Assembly (NCBI GenBank): GCA_945872035.1
Contig: CAMBYA010000162.1
Span: 1 to 6,048 of the forward strand
Length of the DNA: 6,048 nucleotides
Direction: 5' to 3'
Origin: Rhizobium sp. Q54
Lineage (GTDB): Bacteria > Pseudomonadota > Alphaproteobacteria > SMXS01
Within the stretch, counting starts at the first letter, position 1, and each line of letters starts with the position of its first letter. Both the position numbers and the translations under genes were made by a program. The notes under the pieces are model-generated. The model did no database searches. It was not told where the DNA came from and saw nothing but the letters and a program-made list of their open reading frames with translations. Shown here piece by piece: positions 945-1,248 of the stretch.

Positions 945-963
945 AGTGCCTGTCCCTATGGTG

Positions 964-986
964 CGAGGTCTGCGTCAACAGCCTCG
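964..986 (-). repeat. Hairpin just upstream of the transposase (candidate donor-binding loop)
   Basis: CGAGG (964-968) and CTG (970-972) pair with CAG (979-981) and CCTCG (982-986), leaving T969 bulged and a 6-base loop. Next to it on the minus strand lies ACAGTTGC (995 to 988), which recurs exactly after the transposase stop (13 to 6). The position, last in the leader and close to the ATG, fits the donor loop of IS110-group bridge RNAs. It could also affect transposase translation, since it ends about 20 bases before the start codon. Confidence 0.5.
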
Positions 987-1011
987 TGCAACTGTTCAGG
1001 TGGAACGCAAA

Positions 1012-1077
1012 GGCGGTCGGTGACCAAAGCCCGCACGCGGTCTTCAGGACCAGGGACCCAACGGCCTACCGACCGCC
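1012..1077 (-). repeat. Perfect 10-base inverted repeat enclosing a 46-base loop (candidate target-binding loop)
   Basis: GGCGGTCGGT at 1012-1021 is exactly complementary to ACCGACCGCC at 1068-1077. The enclosed loop carries TGGGTCCC (minus strand, 1060 to 1053) on one side and CCGCGTGC (1040 to 1033) on the other, separated by 12 bases that can fold as a small hairpin. Together these two pieces are nearly the contiguous TGGGTCCCCGCGTGC of the REP-like repeat at 1197-1211. A long stem bounding an asymmetric internal loop with guide-like arms is the architecture of a bridge RNA target loop. The stem is seen directly; the role is inferred. Confidence 0.6.
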
Positions 1078-1112
1078 ACCATCCTCGCACATCGCAAACA
1101 CACAGGGACCCA
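1051..1112. repeat. Pair of exact 10-base direct repeats, CAGGGACCCA
   Basis: CAGGGACCCA occurs at 1051-1060 and again at 1103-1112. Its 8-base core GGGACCCA occurs a third time, inverted as TGGGTCCC, at 1197-1204 in the REP-like repeat. The first copy is inside the large leader stem-loop and the second lies between it and the first hairpin. The recurrence is seen directly; a link to target recognition is a guess. Confidence 0.6.
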
Positions 1113-1194
1113 GATGGGGAAGGGTACGAGGCCCTTGTGTGCCTCGATAACGATAGATTCAAGACGCTGCAGACGGGCCGGTGCCCTACGAAGA

Positions 1195-1222
1195 GCTGGG
1201 TCCCCGCGTGCGCGGGGATGAC
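1195..1222. repeat. REP-like palindromic repeat next to the IS element
   Basis: The core TCCCCGCGTGCGCGGGGA (1201-1218) has 8-base complementary arms around a central TG, flanked by CTGGG on one side and TGACG on the other. Dispersed intergenic palindromes with this pattern, GGGTCCCCGCG and CGCGGGGATGAC arms, are common in proteobacterial genomes; their chance translation gives the frequent spurious peptide VPACAGMT, which is also encoded here. Only one copy is in this window. It could act as a stabilising hairpin at the 3' end of the hemW transcript. REP-type repeats are known targets of IS110-family elements (IS621 in E. coli), so its place beside this element may not be accidental. Confidence 0.7.
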
Positions 1223-1233
1223 GATAATGGGTG

Positions 1234-1248
1234 GGGTTAGGCTAACCC
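1234..1248 (-). terminator. Small palindrome overlapping the hemW stop, possible weak transcription end
   Basis: GGGTTAG and CTAACCC form a perfect 15-base palindrome with one central base, and the hemW stop codon TAG lies inside it. As an RNA hairpin it would have about five pairs and a 5-base loop. No run of T follows on the minus strand, so it does not match a canonical intrinsic terminator. With the stronger REP-like hairpin 16 bases downstream it may end or protect the rph-rdgB-hemW transcript. Confidence 0.3.

Follow-up and report, generated by a model that had tools for sequence, protein, structure and literature searches.

The window analysed here is the whole 6,048-nt stretch of contig CAMBYA010000162.1 (C162) of Rhizobium sp. 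Q54, which belongs to a fragmented assembly of 2.38 Mb in 338 contigs. At positions 15–944 of its minus strand lies a gene for a DEDD recombinase of 309 aa, assigned through Pfam, the NCBIfam model NF033542 and alignment with IS621. The protein carries both IS110 domains (DEDD, PF01548, and Transposase_20, PF02371), scores 210.4 bits with NF033542, "IS110 family RNA-guided transposase" (cut-off 140), and matches IS621 and ISCro4, the solved relatives, in the PDB. Residues D11, E53, D95, D98 and S234 align with IS621 D11, E60, D102, D105 and S241, as these are named in the available portion of PMC11208158 and with numbering corrected for an offset of two residues in the PDB chain, and the EATG motif around the core-reading glycine is retained. 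NCBIfam TIGR_Tas_endo also matched the same minus-strand gene product, at 34.7 bits and so below its cut-off of 100.

Judged by the sequence of its ends, the recombinase gene is part of a complete ~1.1-kb IS110-group insertion sequence in a REP palindrome beside hemW, occupying positions 5–1106 on the minus strand with the core CC counted at both ends. The right end, placed by sequence, is CACAGTTG (7–14), which covers the 8 nt past the stop codon and constitutes the left-donor sequence; the core CC (5–6) follows it, as read from the sequence and by junction comparison, and then comes the target CGCG (4–1). At the left end, placed by sequence and by the empty site in sister genomes, the core CC (1105–1106) is preceded by the target TGGGTC. 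The right end with its core, ACACAGTTG-CC, is found not only in the window but also in contigs C141, C122 and C186, where other host DNA follows it (core included, CCCGC in C141 and C122 and CCCGA in C186). One genome thus holds at least three right-end junctions of the element on C141, C122 and C186 (L002, L003 and L004), the last of which has no adjoining REP, only CCCGA.

Two sister genomes, L033 and L035, carry a REP palindrome pair on the hemW side and lack the element. In L035 this pair lies downstream of hemW, and window positions 1105–1225 align with it at 81.7% across 126 columns; the alignment with L033 is in shorter pieces. From this alignment we read the empty site as TGGGTC-CC-CGCGTGCGCGGGGATGACG, in short TGGGTC-CC-CGCG. 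Since the left junction GGGTCCC and the right junction CCCGCG share two of the REP's four C residues, the core is CC. Contig C141 runs into the gene that follows hemW in the sister genomes, aligning with L033 at 96.1% across 457 columns, and therefore C162 and C141 very likely flank a single insertion. The REP word TGGGTCCCCGCG occurs seven times in the source genome, against no occurrence of its backward control.

The host REP pair and its spacer, delimited with the help of the sister genomes and other REP copies, span 1107–1230 (no strand assigned) and lie outside the element. They include a hairpin at 1127–1146 that had been counted as the first structure of the leader; it exists as sequence (CGAGGC/GCCTCG) but belongs to host DNA, the left end being at 1105/1106. 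A left end close to the REP that abuts near 1195 was considered and rejected, since both the target guide and the empty site of the sister genomes point to 1105/1106. The REP pair and spacer by hemW (window 1105–1245 against L035 2646–2809) align with the sister genome in an orientation that is inverted relative to hemW, as if flipped between the two inverted REPs. The noncoding left end of the element is long, ~160 nt, against 8 nt at the right; the trait of the IS1111 group, an RNA in a long right end, was looked for and not found in a right end of only 8 nt.

The left end is predicted to encode a bridge RNA of ~130 nt (949–1078, minus strand), a span supported by covariation over 945–1081 and, for its 5′ end, by a rebuilt promoter whose spacing was compared in five elements. 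Folding, covariation and a sequence-only alignment all delineate two modules on that strand. The target-binding loop (1012–1077) consists of a stem 1068–1077/1012–1021, a bulged A at 1067, a second stem 1063–1066/1022–1025 and an apical stem 1048–1052/1038–1042, and the donor-binding loop (949–1000) of a lower stem 997–1000/949–952 and a hairpin 979–986/964–972. The perfect 10-bp stem 1012–1021/1068–1077 around a 46-base loop is present exactly as originally described, as is the bulged hairpin at 964–986, which we recognize as the donor-loop hairpin. The order proposed for these structures (5′ hairpin, target loop, donor loop) holds for its last two items and fails for the first, 1127–1146 lying outside the element. 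Single-sequence folding of a longer leader also offered an outer stem of GUGCGAGG with CCUCGCAC, which we rejected because relatives place that CCUCG in the donor hairpin. A leader peptide was discarded as well, the 68-aa TTG frame at 956–1162 extending out of the element.

A covariance model built from window 945–1081 alone (R1) was searched against 37 sources of our own choosing among loci already collected, with matches counted at E ≤ 1. R1 matched 26 of the 37, namely the window, the sX15 locus L040 and 24 others, and gave no match in 11. In all 24 others the match precedes the transposase start on the strand of that gene, by 32 nt or less in 23 and by 88 nt in L061; the leader travels with the transposase, as had been foreseen. 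Alignment A4 comprises the 13 strongest distinct sequences of the 26 matches, with one of four S. medicae copies kept. In A4, standard pairs fill 93.8% of 386 cells, compared with 75.6 ± 1.2 in shuffles, and 21 of 31 pairs show two-sided changes; cells with such changes number 74, compared with 23.0 ± 3.8, a count equalled in none of 500 shuffles. The covariation score is 0.529, against 0.184 ± 0.017 in shuffles and no more than 0.102 after sliding the partners. Because A4 had been fitted to the structure, the sequences were realigned on sequence alone, and RNAalifold recovered the same four helices with two-sided changes in 15 of 24 pairs. Helix 1, which includes the stem 1012–1021/1068–1077, has 12 of 14 pairs changed on both sides and 96.1% of cells paired, so that the stem singled out beforehand for a covariation check abounds in compensatory changes. 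Two residues conserved in IS110 RNAs according to PMC11208158, the bulged A and the G that follows the stem, were read by eye in 12 and 13 of the 13 rows, respectively. As judged from these alignments, the two-module fold is kept by compensatory changes.

Each loop contains a pair of putative guides on the minus strand. In the target loop, the left guide UGGGUCCC (1053–1060), in DNA letters TGGGTCCC, is identical to the left flank plus core at 8 of 8 positions, and the right guide GCGGG (1030–1034) is complementary to core plus right flank, CCCGC, at 5 of 5. In the donor loop, the left guide AACAGUUG (989–996) contains an ACAGTTG that is found in the right end, and the right guide CAUAGGGA (953–960) contains a CAUAGG that, by reading the sequence, can pair with the left end CCTGTG with one U-G. 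For comparison among elements, guides were cut from fixed alignment columns. The target-guide test covered eight copies with only four guide types: left matches were 8, 8, 8, 8, 8, 6, 7 and 7 of 8 and right matches 5, 4, 4, 5, 4, 3, 5 and 5 of 5, the S. medicae copy L039 matching poorly (left 6/8, right 3/5). With the core removed, the left guide matches its own flank at 4–6 of 6 positions, while 36 swapped pairs average 2.67 and reach 5 at most, and the true guide-target assignment ranked first of 24 permutations for three choices of representatives, which is the best rank attainable with four types.

The donor guides were compared in 26 distinct elements, drawn from 41 with a readable donor motif. 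In 21 of the 26, the 7-mer of the guide recurs in the right end of the same element; when guides and ends of different types were swapped, this was so in 27 of 494 pairs. The five elements in which it was not found include L057, a parsing error (an earlier motif was caught) that is still scored as a miss. As for right donor guides and left ends, L013 combines a left end CCTATG with CAUAGG, and L009, L038 and L066 combine CCTGTG with CACAGG, next to the single U-G of the window.

The short length of the RNA is predicted from a putative promoter. On joined ends, five elements have TTGCCT and, at a spacing of 17 nt, a −10-like hexamer with 3 or 4 of 6 matches, and in the window the putative rebuilt promoter has TTGCCT as its −35 and a weak −10 matching 3 of 6. 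This placement would have the RNA begin at the base of the target-loop stem, leaving no room for a 5′ stem loop; the transcript of roughly 180 nt that had been expected gives way to a prediction of ~130 nt. No sigma-70-like site was found in 850–1260, a stretch that does not contain the circle junction.

A second model (R2), built from the 13 A4 sequences, gave 35 matches in 18 of 385 genomes of the class, and an IS110 transposase was found by tblastn at 21 of the 30 matches that were fetched. Three more (L071, L079 and L081) show an apparent transposase N-terminal start, four (L080, L085, L092 and L096) are interrupted by a contig end, and at L074 and L084 no transposase was seen. This recovery is not fully independent, in that the window and G227 elements are in the model and the elements of G066, G137, G202, G283 and G033 had already been found by protein search before R2. 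A search of genome contigs yielded three loci, L010 and L011 being without the leader; a search of 10 genomes at the level of the order gave no further copy, and a search of viral contigs gave no relative.

Together these data lead us to conclude, with high confidence, that the window carries a complete IS110-group element whose leader likely encodes a ~130-nt bridge RNA that would steer a DEDD recombinase into REPs. The bridge-RNA identity first proposed for the leader is upheld by covariation and by guides that match target and donor ends, except that the hairpin proposed for its 5′ end lies in host DNA. The bridge RNA is a sound candidate with defined guides, ordinary in kind. If the element behaves as IS621 does, its right end (TTG-CC) would be joined to its left end in an excised circle, and the circle junction would rebuild the promoter, from which transcription would begin at the base of the target-loop stem. 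The bridge RNA would then associate with the recombinase and base-pair, through each of its loops, with the two strands of the corresponding DNA. Strand exchange at the common CC core would place the element with TGGGTC on one side and CGCG on the other.

The locus also touches a catalogued small RNA. Rfam model RF02234 (sX15) matches the window's plus strand at 931–1091 with 26.5 bits, short of the gathering cut-off of 55. An sX15 consensus query returned nine Xanthomonas plasmid records, among which a 251-base sX15 stretch is at least 99% identical. In L040 and L041 the sX15 complement stands just upstream of a short, soon-stopped frame starting MNGIGIDVCKAKL, which we take to be an IS110 start. 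R2, trained without sX15, finds the sX15 complement at E 1.1e-10, and the sX15 model in turn matches L041 with 150.9 bits (2501–2659) and, below the cut-off, L046 (47 bits; 2439–2595), L048 (33.2), L009 (32.6) and L057 (27.9), each time opposite a bridge RNA, with no match in 5 of the 10 sources. These reciprocal matches place sX15 over an IS110 bridge RNA region: on the complementary strand it has the two-loop form seen in the window, whereas its recorded strand is opposite to that of the window's bridge RNA. This suggests an identity for the catalogued RNA, whose region would be an IS110 left end viewed from the other strand. Among 60 related genomes sX15 was found in none, and controls likewise scored 0 of 14. 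In the literature searched, sX15 is an entry in a list of predicted RNAs; we found no link there between sX15 and bridge RNAs, and the term is absent from the available text of PMC11208160 and from PMC3771888. sX15 may be an antisense RNA like Asr9 of ISPpu9, which the accessible part of PMC8450116 describes as an antisense RNA over the transposase leader, or it may be a mis-stranded record. That full-length antisense RNAs check IS110 bridge RNAs, with sX15 and Asr9 as known cases and the window's plus strand (~931–1091) as a third, strikes us as unlikely; such a plus-strand RNA would pair along the entire bridge RNA and would gate guide supply and transposase translation together.

Other explanations of the leader would deny it a guide role on the minus strand. 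It could be a structured 5′ untranslated region controlling transposase translation: the leader adjoins the start codon, and ISPpu9 has such a 5′ region according to the portion of PMC8450116 available. However, the loops match the target flank and the right end and co-vary with them between elements, neither of which a translation switch predicts, and we regard this explanation as improbable, although a guide role and translation control could both be possible together. Even less probable is a working RNA on the plus strand as Rfam recorded sX15, with the minus-strand fold as its mirror. The plus-strand match in the window and the orientation of sX15 opposite the transposase strand in L041, L046, L048, L009 and L057 speak for it, but the window match stays under the cut-off, only L041 among the 10 sources exceeds it, no plus-strand promoter-like site was found in 850–1260, and guide polarity, loop order and location agree with IS621 on the minus strand. 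Finally, hairpins that are functionless and due to chance or repeats might be expected in REP-rich surroundings, and the folding energy of the single sequence is unremarkable (z −1.12; 26 of 200 shuffles reach an equal or better energy). The REPs, however, lie outside the element and the inner stems change on both sides across 13 sequences, so that this explanation, contradicted by covariation unless the covariation is an alignment artefact, is the least credible of all.

With a guide-bearing bridge RNA as the preferred reading, the system extends the known bridge recombinases by one whose guide RNA is predicted to be short, whose core is CC and whose natural target is a REP. It is of interest for the short predicted RNA, the core and the sX15 link, and its sequence-defined ends, guides and empty site make it useful for testing how the core is read. 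As far as the available portions of PMC11208160 and PMC11208158 describe IS621, the two elements share the catalytic residues of a DEDD plus Tnp recombinase, a long left end with an RNA in which the target loop precedes the donor loop, guides to both strands, a REP target, and the bulged A with the next G. Unlike the 177-nt IS621 bridge RNA with its 5′ stem loop (accessible text of PMC11208160), the RNA predicted here is ~130 nt long and by its inferred start has no room for such a stem loop, the removal of which was tested in IS621 (PMC11208158, available part). The core differs as well, being CC by junction and empty site and not CT, whose T is almost invariant in IS621 relatives and read by the glycine backbone (same portion of PMC11208158); the AG core of ISPpu9, given in the accessible part of PMC8450116, marks CT as an IS621 preference and not a family requirement. 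The ISEc21 seekRNA, described by its short target-finding part, resembles the window's element in its upstream noncoding region, in a circle-junction promoter, here predicted, and in an RNA matching both target strands, whereas ISEc21 targets lie inside IS3-family transposases (PMC11187229). ISPpu9, in the part of PMC8450116 available, is likewise an IS110-family element in REPs and has an antisense RNA (Asr9) over the transposase leader. It differs by an additional sense RNA (Ssr9) encoded beyond the transposase; the 8-nt right end of the window's element is too short for one.
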